This document shows, one piece after another, positions 7,659 to 18,395 of a stretch of 38,689 bases of DNA (positions within the stretch are counted from its first letter, which is position 1; every line of letters begins with the position of its first letter). Origin of the DNA: Bacteroidota bacterium (GTDB lineage Bacteria; Bacteroidota; Ignavibacteria; UBA10030); contig JACVXU010000005.1 in NCBI GenBank assembly GCA_015661185.1, positions 1-38,689 of the forward strand. The letters are read 5' to 3'. The notes beneath the pieces are model-generated. The model saw nothing but the letters and a program-made list of their open reading frames with translations, was not told where the DNA came from and made no database searches. The translations under genes were made by a program, and so were the position numbers.

Positions 7659-9140
7659 TTGCCCAAACGAAGTGATATCAAGTCCATCCTGATCATCGGT
7701 TCCGGCCCCATCGTTATCGGTCAAGCATGTGAATTTGATTACTCCGGGACTCAGGCCTGCAAAGTGCTGAGGGAGGAGGGGTATCGCGTCCTCCTCATCA
7801 ACAGCAATCCCGCAACGATCATGACCGATCCGGACCTTGCCGATGCGACCTACGTCGAGCCCATCACACCTGCTATCGTCGAGAAGATCATTGAGAAAGA
7901 ACGGCCCGATGTGATTCTTCCAACGATGGGGGGGCAAACGGCACTCAATATCGCCGTCGCTCTTGCAGATAGCGGAGTGTTGAAACGATATGGTGTTGAG
8001 CTGATTGGCGCCAAACTCGATGCGATCAAGAAAGCTGAAGACCGTGAGTTGTTTCAGGAGGCGATGAGTCAGATCGGACTCGAGACGCCGCGGGGTAGGT
8101 TTGTTCATTCGATCGAGGAAGCTCTGGCTGCGGTGGCAGAAATTGGCCTGCCGAACATCATTCGGCCTTCGTTCACTCTCGGAGGCACAGGAGGGGGGAC
8201 GGCCTACAACCTCGAGGAGTTTCGAGAAAAGGTGGAGCATGGATTGGGAAGCAGTCCCGTTCATCAGGTTCTTGTCGAAGAGTCGGTGATCGGGTGGAAA
8301 GAGTATGAGCTGGAGGTCATGCGCGACCTCAAGGACAACGTGGTGATCATCTGTTCCATCGAGAATTTTGACCCGATGGGGGTCCACACGGGGGATTCCA
8401 TCACCGTCGCGCCGGCACAGACCCTCAGTGACAAAGAATATCAGACGATGAGGGACGCGGCGATCAAGATCATCCGGAAGATCGGTGTTGAGACGGGGGG
8501 ATCGAATATCCAGTTTGCCGTCGATCCAAAGGACGGCAGGATGACCGTCATCGAAATGAATCCCCGCGTTTCCCGTTCCTCGGCGCTTGCATCAAAAGCT
8601 ACGGGATTCCCCATCGCTAAAATTGCTGCCAAGCTTGCTGTTGGGTACACGTTAGATGAAATCCCGAATGACATTACAAAAGAAACGCCTGCCTCATTCG
8701 AGCCTACCATCGACTATTGTGTTGTCAAGATCCCGCGATGGGATTTCGAAAAGTTCAAAGGAGTCGACGACACGCTTGGAGTACAGATGAAATCTGTCGG
8801 CGAAGCGATGGCGATCGGTCGGACATTCAAGGAAGCGTTTCAGAAAGCCCTGCGTTCTCTTGAGCAGGGGCGTTTCGGCCTCGGTGCCGATGGGAAGGAT
8901 TTCCTGGACGTTCGGACTCTCCCTGACGCCAAACGAGAGGAGTGGAAAAAGAAAACACTCGACCGTCTTAGAATGCCGAAGCCGAACAACGTGTTCTATA
9001 TCCGGTACGCGTATCAGCTTGGTGCGACAGTCAATGAAGTGCACACCATCACGAAGATTGATCCCTGGTTTCTTCACAACTTGAAACAGATAGTTGATTT
9101 TGAGGAGGAGTTGTATGCCTACAGCCTGCAGCCTTCGTAA
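7659..9140 (+). CDS. carB1: Carbamoyl-phosphate synthase large subunit, N-terminal half
   Basis: The first half (493 residues) of CarB, which makes carbamoyl phosphate from bicarbonate, ATP and ammonia for arginine and pyrimidine synthesis. It begins [21 protein letters not shown], so the TTG start is fixed by homology; GAAAG lies upstream. The carboxyphosphate domain is complete, with ATP-grasp parts [14 protein letters not shown] and [20 protein letters not shown]. The protein then enters the oligomerisation domain ([39 protein letters not shown]) and stops after a few unrelated residues (YAYSLQPS). The remainder is encoded by carB2, 509 bases further on in another frame. In most bacteria this is one gene of about 1,070 codons. 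A carA gene is not in the window. Confidence 0.95.
9102..9110 (+). promoter_or_regulatory. Ribosome binding site of the gene inserted in carB
   Basis: GAGGAGGAG lies four bases before the ATG at 9115. It sits inside the last homologous codons of carB1 (the EEE of FEEEL), so the same bases encode a CarB acidic run and start the next cistron. This decides the start of the inserted gene at 9115 rather than 9094. Confidence 0.75.
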
Positions 9141-9672
9141 GCATCCGGAGAGCCGCAGTGGCTCAGCGCCTCGACTGAGGTTGAGCCTCGCGGCTGTCCA
9201 ACTGTTCTTCGTGGTGAGTCTGGCCCTTGTCCTTCCGGGGCGGTTGATGGCCCAGCTCACCATTCCGCCTGACAAAGACGCCCTTTTAAAAGGGCTCGGG
9301 ATGGGACTCGCAACAATCGCAGATGTGAACAGCTATCCGGGTCCGAAGCACGTCATCGGACTTAAGACTGAACTCAGCCTGACGCGGGATCAGCTGAAGA
9401 AGACAGAGGCACTCGACAAGGTTGTTTCAAGCTCAGCAGTAGCGAAAGGCGAGGAAATCGTGCTGGCAGAAGAGGAGCTCTACAAGCTTTTTGAGGCCGG
9501 AACCATCAGTGAGAAAGCGCTCAGGTTGCAGCTCGAGCAAATCGGGAAACTGCGCGCTGATCTCCGGTTCATTCATTTGCAGGCGCACCTGCGGATGAAG
9601 CAAATCCTGACGTCCGATCAAATAAAACAGTACAACGAAATCAGGGGACGTGAAAACAAGCTCGAAAACTAA
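9115..9672 (+). CDS. Exported Spy/CpxP-like protein encoded between the carB halves
   Basis: A 185-residue protein, unrelated to CarB. A basic N-terminal region ([15 protein letters not shown]) is followed by a strong hydrophobic core ([17 protein letters not shown]) and a likely cleavage site after LMA, so it should be exported to the periplasm. The mature part is helical and charged, with two LTxxQ-type motifs ([10 protein letters not shown] and [11 protein letters not shown]). These are the hallmark of Spy/CpxP-like periplasmic chaperone or metal-sensor proteins. It overlaps the end of carB1 by 26 bases and the start of carB2 by 23, in three different frames. Translation must therefore be coupled along one mRNA. 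No connection to carbamoyl phosphate is apparent. Family assignment is by motif only. Confidence 0.8.
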
Positions 9673-11476
9673 GGGCGTTCCGACGCCCGTCACGCGTGAA
9701 GTCCTGCTGAAAGCCAAGCAATACGGCTTCTCCGATCAGCAGCTTGCCCATCTGTGGGGGTCAACCGAGAGAGCTGTCCGGCAACTCCGCAAAGAGATGG
9801 GTGTGATACCTGTTTACAAAACTGTCGATACGTGCGCAGCGGAGTTCGAAGCGCACACCCCGTATCACTATTCAACCTACGATCAGGAGAACGAGTCCAT
9901 CCGGACCGACCGAAAGAAAGTGATCATTCTGGGCGGAGGACCGAACCGGATCGGTCAGGGCATCGAGTTTGACTACTGCTGTGTCCACGGAGTCTACGCG
10001 CTGGAGGAAGAGGGGATTGAAACCATTATGATCAACTGTAACCCTGAGACGGTCTCGACGGATTACGACACAACCGACAAGCTGTACTTCGAACCGCTGA
10101 CACTCGAGGACGTGCTCAATATCTACGACCACGAGCAGCCGCTCGGTCTTATCGTCAGCTTCGGCGGTCAGACGCCACTCAAGATCGCCAAGGCGCTCGA
10201 GGAAAACGGTGTGCGCATCCTCGGCACTTCCTCCGAAGGAATCGATATTGCAGAGGACCGCGAGAGATTTGGTGCGCTGCTCCGTAGACTGAAGATTCCT
10301 CATCCGATGTACGGAACAGCATATTCTGTCAGCAATGCAGTTTTGGTGGCAGAACACATCGGCTTTCCTGTCCTGATCCGTCCTTCCTATGTGCTCGGCG
10401 GACGTGCAATGGAAATCTGCTACAATAGCGATGCTGTCCGCGAGTACATGAAGAAAGCCGTCGATGTTTCCCCCGAACACCCCGTCCTGATCGACCGGTT
10501 TCTTGAGGATGCGTTTGAATTTGATGTCGACGCCGTGTGCGATGGGAAGGATGTGCTCATCGGCGGAGTCATGGAACACATCGAGGAAGCGGGCATTCAC
10601 TCGGGTGATAGCTCATGCGTTCTTCCTCCGTACATGATCTCCGAAAAGAACCTGGATGAACTCAAGCTCTATACCGTCCGACTCGCGAAGGCGCTGAAAG
10701 TCATCGGACTCATCAACGTACAGTACGCAATGAAGGATGGTCTAGTCTATGTGCTCGAAGTGAATCCACGGGCATCCCGAACCGTTCCGTTTGTGAGCAA
10801 GGCCACCGGGCTTCCTCTCGCCAAGATCGCGGCGAAGGTGATGATAGGCAGAACGCTGGAAGATCTAGGAGTAAAGAACTTCGACTTCCAGAAGGTAAAG
10901 CACATTTCAGTGAAGGAAGCTGTGTTCCCGTTCTCGAAATTTCCCCGGGTTCCGGTCTTCCTCGGACCTGAGATGCGTTCAACCGGCGAGGTGATGGGGA
11001 TCTCTTCGGATTTCGGTGCGGCGATCGCAAAAGCTCAAATGGCGGCAGGGAACACGCTCCCGACGGATGGGACCGTATTCATCAGCGTCAACGATAGCGA
11101 CAAAAACGAGATCACCCTGAACATTGTCAGAGATTATGAGCGATTGGGCTTCTCCTTCGTCGCAACGGAAGGGACGGCAAACTTCCTCCGCCAGAAAGGG
11201 ATCAAATGCGCGATCGTCTTCAAAGTGAACGAGGGCAGGCCGAACGTTGTTGATCTGATCAAGAATGGCGAAATCAATCTCGTCATCAACACTCCTCTCG
11301 GTGAAGGGTCCCGGTACGACGAGTATTCAATTGGCTGGGCCGCCATCGAGCAGAAGGTTTCCTTCATTACTACCCTCTCTGCTGCCGCAACAGCAGTGAA
11401 GGGGATCGAACAACAAGATCTGCTTGGGCTCGAGGTCAAGAGTCTGCAGGAATATCAAAAGGAGATTGCCGAATAG
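9650..11476 (+). CDS. carB2: Carbamoyl-phosphate synthase large subunit, C-terminal half
   Basis: The second half (608 residues) of CarB. It resumes in the oligomerisation domain (TPVTREVLLKAKQYGFSDQQ, then VYKTVDTCAAEFEAHTPY), then holds the whole carbamoyl-phosphate domain (GGGPNRIGQGIEFDYCCVH, NCNPETVSTDYDT, SYVLGGRAMEI, LEVNPRASRTVPFVSKATG). It ends with the regulatory MGS-like domain (FVATEGTANFLRQKGI, LVINTPLGEGSRYDEYSI). Together with carB1 it gives 1,101 residues, close to an intact CarB, with no catalytic segment missing. The start is a GTG at 9650 with AGGGG only two bases upstream, and it overlaps the preceding stop, so it probably depends on reinitiation. The two proteins must associate with each other and with CarA. 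Confidence 0.95.
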   Translation: MKTSSKTKGVPTPVTREVLLKAKQYGFSDQQLAHLWGSTERAVRQLRKEMGVIPVYKTVDTCAAEFEAHTPYHYSTYDQENESIRTDRKKVIILGGGPNRIGQGIEFDYCCVHGVYALEEEGIETIMINCNPETVSTDYDTTDKLYFEPLTLEDVLNIYDHEQPLGLIVSFGGQTPLKIAKALEENGVRILGTSSEGIDIAEDRERFGALLRRLKIPHPMYGTAYSVSNAVLVAEHIGFPVLIRPSYVLGGRAMEICYNSDAVREYMKKAVDVSPEHPVLIDRFLEDAFEFDVDAVCDGKDVLIGGVMEHIEEAGIHSGDSSCVLPPYMISEKNLDELKLYTVRLAKALKVIGLINVQYAMKDGLVYVLEVNPRASRTVPFVSKATGLPLAKIAAKVMIGRTLEDLGVKNFDFQKVKHISVKEAVFPFSKFPRVPVFLGPEMRSTGEVMGISSDFGAAIAKAQMAAGNTLPTDGTVFISVNDSDKNEITLNIVRDYERLGFSFVATEGTANFLRQKGIKCAIVFKVNEGRPNVVDLIKNGEINLVINTPLGEGSRYDEYSIGWAAIEQKVSFITTLSAAATAVKGIEQQDLLGLEVKSLQEYQKEIAE

Positions 11477-11656: not shown

Positions 11657-11685
11657 TTGACTTATTTTGTCAATTCAACTAAATT
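11657..11685 (+). promoter_or_regulatory. Sigma-70-type promoter of the TPR/barrel/SPOR/TonB operon
   Basis: TTGACT (11657-11662), 17 bases, and TAAATT (11680-11685) form a good housekeeping promoter. Transcription would begin near 11692, giving a leader of about 44 bases before the GTG start of the TPR gene. Confidence 0.7.
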
Positions 11686-11735: not shown

Positions 11736-14700
11736 GTGTTTGGAAAGCCGATGGTGGCTTGTCGTTTCAGGCTGATTCGTCTTTTTCTGACGTTTTTATT
11801 CCTATTCTCTGCCCTGACAGGCACTGATAGTTTTCGGGCCGTTGCCCAAAACCTGCCGGCCCTGAATTCGAATATTGCAGAAGAGCAGGACTACGCATTT
11901 GCTCACGGCCTCTACAAGGATGGCCTTTTCCCGATCGCAGCAGAGCAGTTTGACAAGTTCATAAAGAAGTATCCTCAAAGTGTCAGGATACAAGACGCTC
12001 AATTTCTGCGGGCGGACTGTCTTTTTCAGCAGGAACAATTTTCTGCCGCTGCCAGGGAGTTTTCTATCTTTGTCAGTCAATATCCCACCTCCATCTTGTC
12101 AGACAACGCACGGTTCCGCCTCGGTGAAACGTTTTCGAAGCTCAAGAGGAACCGAGATGCGATAGAATCGTACAAGTCGATCCTCGATCATCCAAAGAAT
12201 TCTTCTGTGGCCGGCGAAGCTGCATATTGGATCGGTGAGATCTACCTCAAGGAGGGAGACTTAACGAACGCTCTAAAATACTATCTTCTTTCGTACGAAG
12301 GATTTGCCGGGAACAAACTCCAGGATTACGCCGCCTATTCCGCTGCATGGGCGAATCAGAAAAAGGGAGACTACGCGAAGGCTGCGGAATGGTACCGGCT
12401 GGTTATTGAAAAGTTCCCCCAGAGTTTGTTGGTTTCCTCATCACGAGTGAAAATTGGGGAGTGCTACTACTTCACAAAGGACTACCCTAGGGCGATTGAA
12501 GAACTCACGACAGCAAAGGCAAGCATCGATTCTTCGGCTCTACGCGGTGAAGCCGACTACCTTATCGGAGAATCACATTACAATCTTGGCCAGTACGAGA
12601 AAGCGCAGAAGCAGTACGAGTCTTTCCTGAAAGAGCATCCCCAGCATCACTTGACCAAAGAAGTTCAATACGCACTCGGATGGACCCTCTTCAAAGAACG
12701 CCAATTCGTTCCGGCTGCAGAGGTATTTGGCAGGATCGCAAGTGCGGAAGATCAACTTGGCCAGGCCGCCCAGTACCGAAAGGGTGTCGCAGAAAAGCTT
12801 GCCGGAAATCGCGAGTCTGCACTTCAGACATTTTCAAAACTGCCCTCGTGGGATCCAAAAGGAGAATATGCCGACAATGCGCTGTATGACGCTGGTACAA
12901 TTCTCTTTGAAGATAAGAAGACGAATGAAGCGAAGGACTACTTTGGCCGAATTGTCGCAGGATTCGGAGGCAGCGACGTCATTGCTGACGCGTACATGAT
13001 GCTTGGAGAGTGCTACGTCGTGAACGCGACCTACGATTCTGCGAGAAGCTGCTTCGAAAAGGCCCTTTCATTCAACGATCTGTCATTCGAGACAAAGGTG
13101 AATTCGGCGTACCAGCTCGCATGGTGCGCATTCAAGATGTTGAAGTACAAGGATGCATCAGCCGATTTCTCCAAGTTTATCGCGTCGTACCCTGATCATC
13201 CAAAGTCGGCCGAAGCGTTGTACTGGCTTTCCGAATCAGAGTACCAGGGCGGAGATTTCCGCAGCGCCTTGAAGCATTATCAGGCAATCGCCGGCGTTGC
13301 AAGCCATGGACGACGTGAAGAGGCTTTGTACGGGATCGGGTGGTCGTACAACAAGCTACTTGATTTCCCGAAGGCGATTGAATCATTTGAGAAACTCATT
13401 ATTGCCTATCCTTCAGGCAAGTTCTCGTTCGACGCGCGCCTGAGATTGGGCGACTGCTACTTTCAGCAAAAGGACTACAAAAGGGCCGCCGGTGCCTATC
13501 GGACTGTCGTTCGCCTCTTCCCGAAGAGCGAAGGGGCTGATTACGCATTGTATCAGCTTGGACAAACCTATTCTCGGTCAGGGGACCACGATCAGGCCTC
13601 CGACCAGTTCAGTGCCTTGATCAAGGCGTATCCGAAATCCTCTCTGTCGGATGATGCGCAATTTGCTCTCGGTTGGATGAAGTTCCAACGGAAAGAGTAT
13701 CTTGCGGCCATTAAGGAATTCCAGGTCGTACTAGCCAACTACCAGGAAAGTGAACTTGTCCCAAGGGCATTCTACAGCATCGGTGACTCGTACTACAATC
13801 TCCGGCAATATGCGGTGGCTGAGAAGTCCTACCGTGAGGTGATGCGGAGGTTTCCTACGACCGCTCTCGCCGCGGATGCGTTGACCGGCATCCAGTATTG
13901 TCTCGTTGCGCAGGGCAAAAGCAAAGAGGCAGTCGGGACGATTGATGCGTACGTAAAGGAGAATCCCACGTCGCCAAACGCGGAGCAGCTTTGGATGAAG
14001 AAGGCCGAGCTTTTATTCAGCCAGAAGCAATACCTGGATGCTGCTCAGGAGTACCGATCGTTCGCTGACGGGCACCCGCGATCAAACATCCGTCCACAGG
14101 CACTGTACTGGTATGCTCGAAGTTTGCAGGAGGCCGACAGTATCAGTGAAGCAGCCACGGCATATCAGGTCGCTGCTGATGCACCAAATGCCTCAGAGAA
14201 CATCAAGGGGAATGCGTTGCTTGAGGCAGGGCGCATCTTCCTGAGGCAGAAGGACTACGAGCAGTCCTTCAAGGTCCTGGATCGCGCCGAGAGAGATCTT
14301 GCGAATACAGAATTTGCTTCACAGGTCGCTTATCTCAAGGGGCTCGTATTCTTCGAGAATGGTGCAACAGATGATGCGAAGGCAAAGTATGAGTTCGTCG
14401 TATCGAAATACCCGTCAACGGTCGAAGCAGCTAGAGCGCGGATAGGATTGACGAGAATTGCCATGCGTGCACAAGAGTACGCAGCCGCGCAAAGCCTTGC
14501 ACAAGAGGTTGCGACGACGCGTACTGATGATGTTGGTGCTGAAGCTCAATACCTCAGCGGATTGACCTATGCGCAAAGCGGCGACTGGCAGAATGCCATC
14601 ACTGCATTCCTTCGAGTTCGCTATGTCTTTCCATCGCACGAAACCTGGCTTGCGAAAGCCTACCTTGGGTTGGGGCAAGCGTATGAACAGGTCAACGATG

Positions 14701-14801
14701 TAATCAAAGCGAAGGAATCGTACCAGCAAGTTCTGAAGATCTCAAAGAGCGGAGAAGAATTCGAAGCAGCATCGCAACGCCTTAAGATGCTCGGACAATA
14801 G
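11736..14801 (+). CDS. Very large exported TPR-repeat protein
   Basis: A 1,021-residue protein built almost entirely of TPR repeats behind a signal peptide (hydrophobic core RLFLTFLFLFSALTG, likely cut after AVAQ near residue 38). Repeats of 34-38 residues carry the pattern A..Y..F...YP.S, and over 20 can be counted (for example FDKFIKKYPQSVRIQDAQF and FSKFIASYPDHPKSAEALYW). This resembles BamD and YbgF/CpoB-type repeats, so a periplasmic or outer-membrane scaffold is likely. The GTG start at 11736 is chosen for GGAGG five bases upstream; an ATG follows at 11751. The barrel gene begins four bases after the stop, so the two are surely co-expressed. The precise partner is not known. Confidence 0.88.
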   Translation: MFGKPMVACRFRLIRLFLTFLFLFSALTGTDSFRAVAQNLPALNSNIAEEQDYAFAHGLYKDGLFPIAAEQFDKFIKKYPQSVRIQDAQFLRADCLFQQEQFSAAAREFSIFVSQYPTSILSDNARFRLGETFSKLKRNRDAIESYKSILDHPKNSSVAGEAAYWIGEIYLKEGDLTNALKYYLLSYEGFAGNKLQDYAAYSAAWANQKKGDYAKAAEWYRLVIEKFPQSLLVSSSRVKIGECYYFTKDYPRAIEELTTAKASIDSSALRGEADYLIGESHYNLGQYEKAQKQYESFLKEHPQHHLTKEVQYALGWTLFKERQFVPAAEVFGRIASAEDQLGQAAQYRKGVAEKLAGNRESALQTFSKLPSWDPKGEYADNALYDAGTILFEDKKTNEAKDYFGRIVAGFGGSDVIADAYMMLGECYVVNATYDSARSCFEKALSFNDLSFETKVNSAYQLAWCAFKMLKYKDASADFSKFIASYPDHPKSAEALYWLSESEYQGGDFRSALKHYQAIAGVASHGRREEALYGIGWSYNKLLDFPKAIESFEKLIIAYPSGKFSFDARLRLGDCYFQQKDYKRAAGAYRTVVRLFPKSEGADYALYQLGQTYSRSGDHDQASDQFSALIKAYPKSSLSDDAQFALGWMKFQRKEYLAAIKEFQVVLANYQESELVPRAFYSIGDSYYNLRQYAVAEKSYREVMRRFPTTALAADALTGIQYCLVAQGKSKEAVGTIDAYVKENPTSPNAEQLWMKKAELLFSQKQYLDAAQEYRSFADGHPRSNIRPQALYWYARSLQEADSISEAATAYQVAADAPNASENIKGNALLEAGRIFLRQKDYEQSFKVLDRAERDLANTEFASQVAYLKGLVFFENGATDDAKAKYEFVVSKYPSTVEAARARIGLTRIAMRAQEYAAAQSLAQEVATTRTDDVGAEAQYLSGLTYAQSGDWQNAITAFLRVRYVFPSHETWLAKAYLGLGQAYEQVNDVIKAKESYQQVLKISKSGEEFEAASQRLKMLGQ

Positions 14802-14805
14802 CGCT

Positions 14806-16560
14806 ATGACAAGACTGTCAATCCAGACTGTTCTTCTCGTCTTATTCGCAATGGCGTGTGGTGTTGCGCAGGAGAAACCGACACCGGCTGAAAAGTCCAA
14901 TCCAGACCCGCGTGCCTTGGGTGTAGCCGCGCCTGATACTTTGTTCAAATCAGCCCCACGGGATAACACCGCCAGAAGCACGCAAGCTCTTCCGAAGTTC
15001 GATCTTCCTGAATACGTCATCACCGGGGTCGCCTCCATCGACCTGCCAGATGTTGAGAAACAGGATGGTGACGAACCACAGCATGTCGTGGAGCTGGCAA
15101 ATCCACTCGATGCGTTGCGCGATCGCTTGACGGCCGAGTTCCTCTCCGGGGAGAAAGATGGCCTGCCAATTGTCGTTGGTTCAGAGAGCAGCGGCAGAAT
15201 CCGGGCAAGCAGTGGCACGTATTTCAATTCGAAGTTCGGTTTGTGGGTCAGCCGACTGGATCCTGACTACTTCTTTTTCGGTGATGCACACTATGGTGTT
15301 TCGCGGGCCTATATTCCGTTCACAAACCGCTCTGGAGGTAATATCAACGTCACTGGTGGGATGACGTTGCACGGTACTTCAGAGCGGTATGGCGGGGGGA
15401 AGCTCCGGGGTGATCTCGGCTACGGAAGCGAAGCGTACCGCTTCTACGGCTCCTCCTCGCCAGGGGTGCTCAGAACCGTCTCACGGTTCGGGCTTGGGGC
15501 AACTCTCGATTCTCCGCGTGAACTCCTGTTCAGCTATGGTGCGCGCGCAGGTCTACTCGTAACCAACATAGGTGATTCTGCGAGCAGTGTCTCGGAAACC
15601 CAATTCCATTTTGGCGGCGAGTCAAACCTTCTCGTGGGATCTTTTCCGCTTGACGGAAGAATCGACCTGTCTCTGACTTCCATCGCAGGGTCTGGATCAG
15701 GGGCATTGCCTTACCTCGAGGCAAGTCTGATGACGCCCAAGCACTGGTTCGGAGGTTTCTTCGTACAGGGTTCGGTCCATCTCTATCTCACTCAAGGGAT
15801 GCTCAGTCAGAAGCTTGCGCGTGTGTATCCCCATGTGGCGGTCGGTTTCAGGGTCCTGGAAAACTCCGTTGCAAGCGCTTCGTATTTGGGGAAGGTGCAG
15901 TTCAATACGCTCTCGGCGCTCGTTGATTCTCATCCTTATCTGTCTGCTGCTTCGACGATCCGGCAATCCGATCTGCCATTGGATCTTATCCTGGCACTTG
16001 AGACCGATTGGAACGAAGTCTGGCGAACGAGATTCTCCGCGCGCTTTCGGACGGTTCGCGAGTATCCTCTCTTTACGGAGGGTGGAGGTGGTTTTCTCGT
16101 AGCACCGTTGGGGGCGCCGGAACCCAAAGGAATCTGGGTCACCGGCTATCTTGGGACGACCTCCATCGCCTCCTATGAGGCAAACGTATTTGCGAAGTTC
16201 GATGCAAATAGTTACTTTACGCTGTCATTGGAGATCAATAGTTCCAGAAACTCGAAAACGCAGTGGGATGTTCCCTATCTTCCGGATCTGCGCATAGGTG
16301 CGGGATTTTCTCTGCAAGTGTTACGGGGGCTTCAGATTTTTCCTTCCGTGGTCTATGTGGGTCGCCGCGTGCCTGATCTCTATGTGGCAAGCAAGTTGAA
16401 AGAGCACGCACGAATGGGATTGCGGGCAGAGTTTTCGGCGCTGAAGGCTCTTGGTGTATTCCTTGACTTCCAGAATGCGACGAATTCAAGGTACGAAGAA
16501 TGGAGCGGGTACAGGGCCGCCCCGCTTGTGATCACAGCTGGAATTGGATATCGTTGGTAA
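14806..16560 (+). CDS. Outer-membrane beta-barrel protein with TonB-box-like segment
   Basis: A 584-residue protein with a signal peptide (LSIQTVLLVLFAMACGVAQ). A proline-rich stretch follows, then KFDLPEYVITGVASIDLPDV, which resembles a TonB box (compare the LPEVVVTG type). The rest reads as alternating amphipathic strands rich in aromatic and glycine residues, ending in AGIGYRW with a terminal aromatic as outer-membrane barrels do. No plug domain typical of TonB-dependent receptors is visible between the box and the barrel. The upstream TPR gene and the downstream SPOR and TonB genes suggest a trans-envelope assembly. The cysteine in AMACG could be a lipobox, but it fits poorly. No substrate can be inferred. 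Confidence 0.75.
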   Translation: MTRLSIQTVLLVLFAMACGVAQEKPTPAEKSNPDPRALGVAAPDTLFKSAPRDNTARSTQALPKFDLPEYVITGVASIDLPDVEKQDGDEPQHVVELANPLDALRDRLTAEFLSGEKDGLPIVVGSESSGRIRASSGTYFNSKFGLWVSRLDPDYFFFGDAHYGVSRAYIPFTNRSGGNINVTGGMTLHGTSERYGGGKLRGDLGYGSEAYRFYGSSSPGVLRTVSRFGLGATLDSPRELLFSYGARAGLLVTNIGDSASSVSETQFHFGGESNLLVGSFPLDGRIDLSLTSIAGSGSGALPYLEASLMTPKHWFGGFFVQGSVHLYLTQGMLSQKLARVYPHVAVGFRVLENSVASASYLGKVQFNTLSALVDSHPYLSAASTIRQSDLPLDLILALETDWNEVWRTRFSARFRTVREYPLFTEGGGGFLVAPLGAPEPKGIWVTGYLGTTSIASYEANVFAKFDANSYFTLSLEINSSRNSKTQWDVPYLPDLRIGAGFSLQVLRGLQIFPSVVYVGRRVPDLYVASKLKEHARMGLRAEFSALKALGVFLDFQNATNSRYEEWSGYRAAPLVITAGIGYRW

Positions 16561-16619
16561 TAACTCAGAGTGTGAGCAGATCGCTCCTTTCAAACTCCCA
16601 AACATAGGAGGTACTTTCA

Positions 16620-17321
16620 ATGCCAGATCTTAACCTGCAAGATGAAGGATCGTCGGAAAACCTGGACGGCTCGGGGGAGCAATCCGAAGAGACTACGATG
16701 CCTGAGGAGGAAACTGCCAAGAAGAAGGGCGGGTTTGCTGCGATTATCATCGTAGTCCTCGTCGTCCTCGTGGTAGGTGGTGGCGGTGCGTTCCTTCTCA
16801 ACAAGCTCGGCGTCATTCATATTTTCGGCGGGAAGAATGCGGCACCGGATGTTGTGCAACTCCAGGATCAGCAGGCGCCGCAGACGGAGATCGCAACGCA
16901 GGAGGCTGGTGCCGGCCAACCTCAGATGATTGAGACCCCTCCGGTTGGTGAAAAAGGAAAGGCTGCTTCGTCGGCAAAGAAAAGCGGGGAGAAGGCGATA
17001 GCGAAAACGGGAGGGAAGGATCAACCGCAGCAGCCGGTGAAAGAAATGCCCGCTCCCGCCTTGAGCGGCAAGCTCCAGGAAATGAAGGGGGAATATACTA
17101 TTCAGGTTTCAGCGTGGAGAGACAAAGAAATTGCGCAGGAAATTGTCAGGCGTCTTGAGGATGCAGGATACCCTGCGTTTGCAGAGGATCGGGCCTATAA
17201 AGATGTAACGTGGTACACTGTTCGCGTCGGCAGGTATGCCTCGCGCAAAGATGCAGAGATGGCAGTTCAGAGCTTCGCTGAGGAATTGAAGTCCAGCTAT
17301 TGGATCGACAAGGCGAAGTGA
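16620..17321 (+). CDS. SPOR-domain membrane protein
   Basis: A 233-residue bitopic protein. An acidic cytoplasmic tail of about 37 residues is followed by one transmembrane helix (GFAAIIIVVLVVLVVGGGGAF, about 38-58). A low-complexity periplasmic linker rich in A, Q, K and P leads to a C-terminal SPOR domain (YTIQVSAWRDKEIAQEIVRR ... WYTVRVGRYASRKDAEMAV, about 155-230). SPOR domains bind glycan strands stripped of peptides, mostly at division sites. AGGAGG lies eight bases before the ATG. Position between the barrel and tonB genes suggests that it tethers this envelope complex to peptidoglycan; that is inference. Confidence 0.88.
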   Translation: MPDLNLQDEGSSENLDGSGEQSEETTMPEEETAKKKGGFAAIIIVVLVVLVVGGGGAFLLNKLGVIHIFGGKNAAPDVVQLQDQQAPQTEIATQEAGAGQPQMIETPPVGEKGKAASSAKKSGEKAIAKTGGKDQPQQPVKEMPAPALSGKLQEMKGEYTIQVSAWRDKEIAQEIVRRLEDAGYPAFAEDRAYKDVTWYTVRVGRYASRKDAEMAVQSFAEELKSSYWIDKAK

Positions 17322-17450
17322 AATAAGTTTTCGGGGGGGCCGTCGGACCTGAAGGGCGGCTCTGTTGTGGGATGTCGGCGTGCAATCGCGCCGTTGGGAT
17401 TGTTGACTTCCTGCTGAGGGATGGCGATGATGCAGGAAGAAGGGGAGTAT

Positions 17451-18395
17451 ATGTCAGATCTTTATCTTTTTCTCCAGCGAACACAATCGTGGTACGGCGC
17501 CGTTGAGCTCGTGCAGAGTTATCGGAGGAACCTGCGACGCGGCCTGACGGCTTCACTCGTGCTTCATGTTTTCGTCCTGGGTGTGTACTGGCTGCTTTTC
17601 TACGACAAGGCGGCAGAATTGTCGACGCACGAGATCCGCATTACGACGTATGAAGAGCTCACCGTCACGCCCAGCATCGGCCAGTCGGACTTTGGTCTCA
17701 AGGTTTATCCCATCCTGGCTCAGAAATTCGAAAGCGGTGATGAGCCGATCCGTGTCTCTCGTCCATCGAAGGGGTTCACAACCAGGAATCCCAACGCACG
17801 GCCTCGTGCAATGGGTCGCGGAATAGGTGACCTTCCCTCTGTATTGCCCAATGACAAGATCAACGCGAACAGTCTCGCTGCTGTAGAAGAGAATTCACAG
17901 TGGGATCGCAATGATCCAGTCGGGGGAAACAATAACCGCGATGATCGTAACAATATTAGCGGCGGTCGCCCGGTATTTGGCAGGGATGGCAATGTCCCCA
18001 GTGGTCCTGCTGCTTCTGGTATTGGCTCAGCGGCGAAGCCGGCGCCGGGTTTGTACGGAACAGGAGGGAGGGGCGGAACCGATTTCTCTGGAGATGGTAC
18101 TGGAGGGGGGATTGGATATTCCATGAATTGGCTTCAGGGGGGCACGCGACGTAAGCTCGCAGGTGACCTGCCAAAATATCCTCCTGGATCGAAGGTCGAA
18201 GCAGAGATTCGGTTGTTTGCAGTTGTGATGCCCGACGGTTCGATAGGAGGTCTTGGGCCTGCACAGAAAGGAGACACTCGTCTGGAGGAGGCTGCCTTGA
18301 AGGAAGTTCGCTACTGGCGATTCGAGCCGCTAAAGTCTTCTCAACCCCAAAAAGATCAGATGTGCGAGATCACCTTCCTCTTCACACTGAAGTGA
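17451..18395 (+). CDS. TonB-family energy transducer
   Basis: A 314-residue protein with a cytoplasmic N-terminal part of about 30 residues, one transmembrane helix (GLTASLVLHVFVLGVYWLLF, 31-50), a long glycine/asparagine-rich periplasmic linker, and a TonB-like C-terminal domain (PPGSKVEAEIRLFAVVMPDG ... LEEAALKEVRYWRFEPL). TonB proteins carry energy from the inner-membrane proton gradient to outer-membrane proteins. The linker lacks the usual Pro-Lys/Pro-Glu repeats. No exbB or exbD gene is nearby, so the motor must be encoded elsewhere. The ATG at 17451 is preferred because GGGGAG precedes it; ATG codons at 17421 and 17427 give a longer alternative. It is last in the four-gene set and converges with minus-strand genes 17 bases away. 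Confidence 0.82.
   Translation: MSDLYLFLQRTQSWYGAVELVQSYRRNLRRGLTASLVLHVFVLGVYWLLFYDKAAELSTHEIRITTYEELTVTPSIGQSDFGLKVYPILAQKFESGDEPIRVSRPSKGFTTRNPNARPRAMGRGIGDLPSVLPNDKINANSLAAVEENSQWDRNDPVGGNNNRDDRNNISGGRPVFGRDGNVPSGPAASGIGSAAKPAPGLYGTGGRGGTDFSGDGTGGGIGYSMNWLQGGTRRKLAGDLPKYPPGSKVEAEIRLFAVVMPDGSIGGLGPAQKGDTRLEEAALKEVRYWRFEPLKSSQPQKDQMCEITFLFTLK

Follow-up and report, generated by a model that had tools for sequence, protein, structure and literature searches.

A widely conserved Bacteroidota gene set with a plug-less, TonB-box barrel is a possible counterpart of Tol-Pal

The window analyzed here, a stretch of 38,689 nucleotides from a Bacteroidota bacterium (Ignavibacteria, UBA10030; contig JACVXU010000005.1), carries four forward-strand genes encoding a giant tetratricopeptide repeat (TPR) protein, an outer-membrane barrel, a SPOR protein and a TonB-like protein (Table 1). 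The gene set is conserved throughout almost the entire Bacteroidota phylum and is apparently undescribed. The original prediction placed four genes at these positions, which the open reading frames (ORFs) bear out, and proposed a unit whose products span the envelope, which is supported. The TPR protein is exported, with an N-terminal signal peptide judged by eye (ending in AVAQ) and no lipobox, and TPR_6 matches it in 20 stretches. The barrel ORF begins 4 nucleotides past the stop of the TPR gene. Because the TonB protein of close relatives begins with MSDLYLF, the likely start of the TonB-like gene is position 17451 and not 17421, where the longest ORF begins. The TonB_C match of the window protein, at 17.4 bits, is under the Pfam cut-off of 24.6, and at the same place in the orthologue from locus L036 the match reaches 30.8 bits and passes it. 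The single promoter proposed for the four genes is a plausible match, at 9 of 12 positions with a 17-bp spacer, but is not above chance: four such matches were found where 3.9 are expected in shuffled sequence.

Table 1. Features of the four-gene locus, in window coordinates
Feature	Position	Strand	Details
Promoter-like TTGACT-17-TAAATT	11657..11685	+	No more than chance
Giant periplasmic TPR protein	11736..14801	+	1021 amino acids, GTG start; TPR_6 E 3e-85 (Pfam)
Outer-membrane barrel, 22-strand TonB-dependent-receptor type without plug	14806..16560	+	584 amino acids; AlphaFold, fold and profile matches
TonB box LPEYVITG, barrel residues 67-74	15004..15027	+	Top-conserved 8 residues, 60 homologues
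Inner-membrane SPOR protein	16620..17321	+	233 amino acids; PF05036 E 2.8e-12
SPOR domain, residues 157-220	17088..17279	+	Pfam
TonB-like force transducer	17451..18395 (likely start; longest ORF from 17421)	+	TonB_C E 0.006; start as in relatives
TonB N-terminal region, YGAxEL and transmembrane helix	17493..17678	+	blastp E 2.7e-5 to TonB of contig C47
TonB C-terminal domain, ORF residues 264-323	18210..18389	+	Pfam

To determine how widely the genes occur together, the barrel was searched for across 148 sampled Bacteroidota genomes, the neighbourhoods of 20 relatives were then read, and named genomes were scanned with the TPR alignment. The scan returned 80 loci, mostly from Ignavibacteria, Melioribacteraceae and other Bacteroidota, together with one Latescibacterota and one Gemmatimonadota metagenome-assembled genome; 60 of the loci had enough downstream sequence to be informative. 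The TPR gene is followed by the barrel gene in all 60, so that the genes, which the original prediction required to be adjacent in related genomes, do stay together. Among these loci the order TPR-barrel-SPOR-ExbB-ExbD-TonB is the commonest (44/60), the shorter TPR-barrel-SPOR-TonB order of the window is found in 12 and the remaining 4 are variants. The proposed unit is thus real, and its four genes are not the full set, which usually comprises six, with ExbB and ExbD between SPOR and TonB. Of 74 TPR-barrel gene pairs, 53 share an overlap of exactly 4 bp, and the adjacency of the two genes is far above chance. In the phylum sample, a full-length TPR protein is present in 107 of the 148 genomes and the barrel in 106, and the two genes are adjacent or no more than 4 kb apart in 83. 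The six-gene order, whole or mostly, also occurs in families distant from that of the window (f13, f28, f14, f20 and f22). Family f12 is counted as lacking the gene set in this tally; two of its genomes, G001 and G006, nevertheless carry a highly divergent TPR-barrel-HU/SPOR cluster (L206:8074-14182 and L207:7065-13179) that the profile searches missed. Such near-universal occurrence in the phylum is as expected of a housekeeping system. Neither the barrel nor the TPR protein belongs to a named family in the curated libraries, and the gene set was not found in the literature searched, which covered few subscription papers and no preprints; the original prediction had likewise recognized no described system with these genes. 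In the Latescibacterota and Gemmatimonadota loci (L088 and L105) the order is TPR-barrel-ExbB-ExbD-TonB with no SPOR gene, and no TolB above cut-off was found in the single genome of each. These two loci suggest that the gene set may reach beyond Bacteroidota.

The barrel was modelled with AlphaFold from 60 sequences (pLDDT 82), and the model shows 22 strands at residues 127-583 preceded by a disordered stretch at residues 27-124. Among solved structures, its fold is closest to TonB-dependent receptors, namely BtuB (Z 22.8 over 427 residues) and FhuA (Z 22.7), and the sequence profile matches TonB-dependent receptors in the Protein Data Bank with an E value of 1.9e-13. No Pfam match to the plug domain (PF07715) was found in the barrel, and the disordered stretch occupies its place in the model, in agreement with the plug-less barrel described in the original prediction. 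The eight most conserved residues of the family, residues 67-74, lie within this stretch and read LPEYVITG in the window and LP[DE][FY]VITG generally among 60 homologues. In receptors from the window's genome, MPEFVVSATR, EVVITG and EVIITG stand immediately ahead of the plugs; because the conserved segment resembles these boxes and no plug was found, it is identified as a TonB box on a receptor barrel without a plug. The barrel is therefore a TonB-dependent-receptor barrel that lost its plug and kept its TonB box, which also supports the earlier proposal that TonB and the barrel are partners. The N-terminal barrel sequence differs in families f23 (Balneolales-like) and f21 (Flavobacteriia-like), and the statement on the TonB box excludes both. 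Matches of the barrel to malate:quinone oxidoreductase were weak and confined to one short stretch, and this assignment was set aside.

A receptor derivative with a TonB box could belong to a dedicated Ton-driven transport system, since TonB systems normally power transport. In such a system a widely used substrate would be imported or exported through the plug-less barrel, the TPR protein would serve as a periplasmic plug or as a chaperone, and the SPOR protein would do no more than position the complex. In known receptors, however, it is the plug that binds the substrate and that TonB unfolds, and here the plug is absent, which makes gated uptake unlikely. In the aligned relatives the gene set neighbours carB, alaS and sugar-transferase genes rather than substrate-binding or catabolic genes, the presence of one clear cluster in each of very different genomes misfits a substrate-specific importer, and the SPOR-HU component has no role in uptake. 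We consider transport an unlikely function of the gene set.

The SPOR protein of the window has a cytoplasmic N-terminus beginning MPDLNL, one transmembrane helix predicted from sequence at about residues 39-61 and, after the helix, a periplasmic SPOR domain scoring 47 bits against a cut-off of 21. In most Ignavibacteria relatives the protein is longer (470-908 residues) and consists of an N-terminal HU domain, a transmembrane helix and a C-terminal SPOR domain; the last is present in 37 of 37 HU-type homologues. In distant families the HU part matches the CCDC81-like prokaryotic HU models PF18174 and PF18175, well over cut-off in L176. A model of an HU-SPOR homologue compared by Foldseek gave the SPOR domains of RlpA and DedD, with RlpA bound to denuded glycan as the best structural match (E 0.02); the HU part matched only weakly, and its assignment is based on Pfam and on the secondary structure of the model. 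An N-terminus of the form MP[DN][LV]NL is conserved in the HU-less SPOR homologues (L052-L083) of the window's wider clade, where it has replaced the HU domain. This short conserved tail (window positions 16620-16637) may take over from the HU domain by binding a partner in the cytosol. Three loci in the class of the TolB-bearing group described below (L208:8264-9886, L209:6813-8111 and L210:8692-10199) have an HU-SPOR gene without TPR protein, barrel or TolB, and in L210 HU and SPOR are on separate ORFs.

The HU domain ahead of the transmembrane helix and SPOR domain in most relatives, and, in L175, an HU-like gene next to the barrel despite the absence of SPOR, would fit a main role in linking the chromosome to the envelope, with HU-SPOR tying the nucleoid to septal peptidoglycan while motor and barrel pull during segregation. 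CCDC81-type HU proteins of Bacteroidetes were reportedly predicted by Burroughs et al. in 2017 to act in chromosome partition, and the HU-SPOR component is said to have been discussed there. The lineage of the window, however, dropped the HU domain and kept the rest, so the core function does not depend on the putative DNA binding, and we regard chromosome linkage as distinctly improbable as the main role.

ExbB and ExbD, which stand between the SPOR and TonB genes in most relatives, are missing in the window, its nearest kin and a few other loci, and no TolQ/TolR-type motor genes were found in the window. Elsewhere, the window's genome encodes ExbB twice, within an ExbB-ExbD-ExbD-TonB row on contig C47 and ahead of two ExbD genes on contig C360. 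The N-terminal 60 residues of the window TonB resemble those of the ExbBD-linked TonB of C47 (blastp E 2.7e-5). Within the clade, a C47-like TonB N-terminus is present in 10 of 10 loci without ExbB/ExbD (E 2e-17 to 3e-5) and in 0 of 19 loci with them (Fisher p 5e-8, ignoring kinship). The TonB N-terminus changes about three times on the TPR tree, in which several branches are weak. The simple reading of these sequences would be that lineages that lost the motor of the cluster re-plugged their TonB into the genome's other motor. In two Stygiobacter-type loci (L125:17969-18550 and L118:17835-18416) an ExbD-like N-terminus is fused to a TonB C-terminal domain, and this fusion-like protein stands in for separate exbD and tonB genes; the ExbD part has an E value of 2e-5 in L125 and is weaker in L118. 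The fusion in L125 thus again joins the functions of ExbD and TonB.

A motor of the ExbB/TolQ type, a TonB-domain transducer (GltG), TPR proteins and outer-membrane barrels are also parts of the Agl-Glt gliding motor of Myxococcus (PMC3169522), which raises the alternative of a surface-force or motility machine pulling a moving outer-membrane platform. The cluster, however, contains neither a cytoplasmic motility scaffold nor an FHA protein, the GltC model scores the TPR protein at 41 bits against a cut-off of 450, the Glt machinery is reported absent from Bacteroidetes (PMC3169522), and the phylum-wide conservation is not confined to gliders as far as the sample tells. A gliding function is therefore very unlikely. 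The TPR protein was rejected both as GltC, on the equivalog score just given, and as the type IX secretion system (T9SS) protein PorW/SprE, for which the NCBIfam equivalog scores 169 bits against a cut-off of 250.

In most diderm bacteria, it is Tol-Pal that pulls in the outer membrane during division. No tol-pal loci are reported for Bacteroidetes, and according to a survey from 2025 further outer-membrane-stabilizing systems are still to be revealed (PMC12204202). The best match to the TolB model TIGR02800 in the window's genome scores 94 bits against a cut-off of 343. True TolB, at 332 bits or more, is present in all 30 genomes sampled from family f17 and in 0 of the 118 others, and a full-length TPR protein occurs in no f17 genome and in 107 of the others, so that the two are found together in 0 of 148 genomes. 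What the TPR search matches in f17 are short proteins encoded next to TolB, which are ordinary YbgF (for example in G015). Family f17 appears to be the Chlorobiaceae, in line with the clustered Tol-Pal genes reported in Chlorobi (PMC8871954). The TPR protein scores 394 bits with the YbgF/CpoB model TIGR02795 (cut-off 90), a score that sums many TPR stretches of a 1021-residue protein. ORF inspection of the cluster, the only place where the Pal lipoprotein was looked for, revealed no pal.

On balance, these observations make it somewhat probable that the gene set encodes an energized trans-envelope machine, Tol-Pal-like in its action, by which outer membrane and peptidoglycan are coupled. A proton-driven ExbB/ExbD motor, encoded in the cluster in most relatives, would drive TonB; the lineage of the window probably borrows this motor from another locus of its genome. 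TonB would span the periplasm and engage the TonB box, which lies in the barrel's disordered N-terminus. Because there is no plug to unfold, the force would act on the barrel together with the TPR protein and the outer membrane around them, instead of on an import-gating plug. The giant TPR protein would serve as a periplasmic scaffold for the barrel and the SPOR protein would fasten the assembly to denuded septal glycan, with the HU domain of most relatives as a possible link to the nucleoid. The net effect would be an outer membrane anchored and invaginated at division sites, the role of tol-pal in other phyla. We infer the contacts of TonB and of the TPR protein with the barrel, the septal location and the role in division from these features. 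Among the functions first suggested for the locus, envelope constriction or anchoring is favoured over export or adhesion. The fuller reading, that this is an unrecognized Bacteroidota counterpart of Tol-Pal in which TonB pulls a plug-less barrel, the TPR protein is the scaffold and HU-SPOR couples septal peptidoglycan and nucleoid, so that chromosome, inner membrane, wall and outer membrane are linked, is possible and is put forward tentatively.

Several observations weigh against a Tol-Pal-like machine of this kind. The mutual exclusion of TolB and the TPR protein, though striking, rests on one clade, as all TolB-positive genomes belong to one family, and the entire class of f17 (98 genomes) is without the TPR protein. 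Its sister families f15 and f30 have neither TolB nor the TPR protein and keep the HU-SPOR gene, which indicates that one system does not in every case compensate for loss of the other. Only the TPR-barrel pair is kept together in families f21, f18, f16 and f27, which does not extend the motor and SPOR links to these families. A sister-pair test that corrects the association of motor loss with the TonB N-terminus for phylogeny was not significant, with too few pairs, and in another clade four loci (L086, L087, L094 and L101) lost ExbB/ExbD without a change of the TonB N-terminus. In addition, PorE has been proposed as the tether between outer membrane and peptidoglycan in Bacteroidetes (PMC12204202).

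The locus is flanked by a split carB gene upstream and a convergent sugar-transferase region downstream. The large chain of carbamoyl-phosphate synthase is encoded in the window by two genes (7659-9140 and 9650-11476), with the split falling within the oligomerization domain (profile positions 1-55 of 80 in the first half and 52-80 in the second). Between the halves lies a small ORF (9094-9672) for a probably exported protein of 192 residues with no Pfam match. In L033 carB is split without the insert, and in L036 it is one fused gene encoding 1119 amino acids.

The cluster provides a concrete, phylum-wide candidate for outer-membrane stabilization, with a motor, a transducer, an outer-membrane target and a wall-binding part, and the question is open to ordinary gene depletion. 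If true, a plug-less receptor barrel with a retained TonB box would represent a new use of Ton, for membrane force and not for import. We rate the gene set as a variant of the ExbBD-type force-transducing machines. With the ExbBD-TonB system and its receptors BtuB and FhuA it has in common the 22-strand barrel fold (Z 22-23), the TonB box and ExbB/ExbD/TonB; in contrast to these receptors, the plug is absent, the barrel goes together with genes for a giant TPR protein and a SPOR protein, and there is one clear cluster per genome. With Tol-Pal (TolQRA-TolB-Pal-CpoB/YbgF) it shares an ExbB/ExbD-type motor, a TonB/TolA-type transducer, a peptidoglycan-binding protein, a periplasmic TPR protein and the near-universal occurrence of a single cluster in the phylum. 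Unlike Tol-Pal, the cluster is without a TolB propeller or Pal, the TonB-box barrel takes the outer-membrane role, peptidoglycan binding falls to an inner-membrane SPOR protein with an HU domain in most relatives, and the TPR protein exceeds CpoB in length about fourfold. The gene set would work like Tol-Pal but is no member of it, because the search for TolB showed its absence and the protein targeted in the outer membrane is of another kind. PorE, a T9SS-associated CpoB-TolB-carboxypeptidase-like-Pal fusion, shares the proposed tethering of the outer membrane to peptidoglycan, but is a single lipoprotein encoded by a different gene, without motor, barrel or SPOR. The CCDC81-like prokaryotic HU proteins (PF18174/PF18175) correspond to the N-terminal domain of most relatives' SPOR protein, whereas the SPOR protein of the window has the short conserved MPDLNL N-terminus instead. 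Agl-Glt likewise combines a motor, a TonB-domain transducer, TPR proteins and outer-membrane barrels, but its gene set and models are unmatched here, with GltC far under its cut-off.

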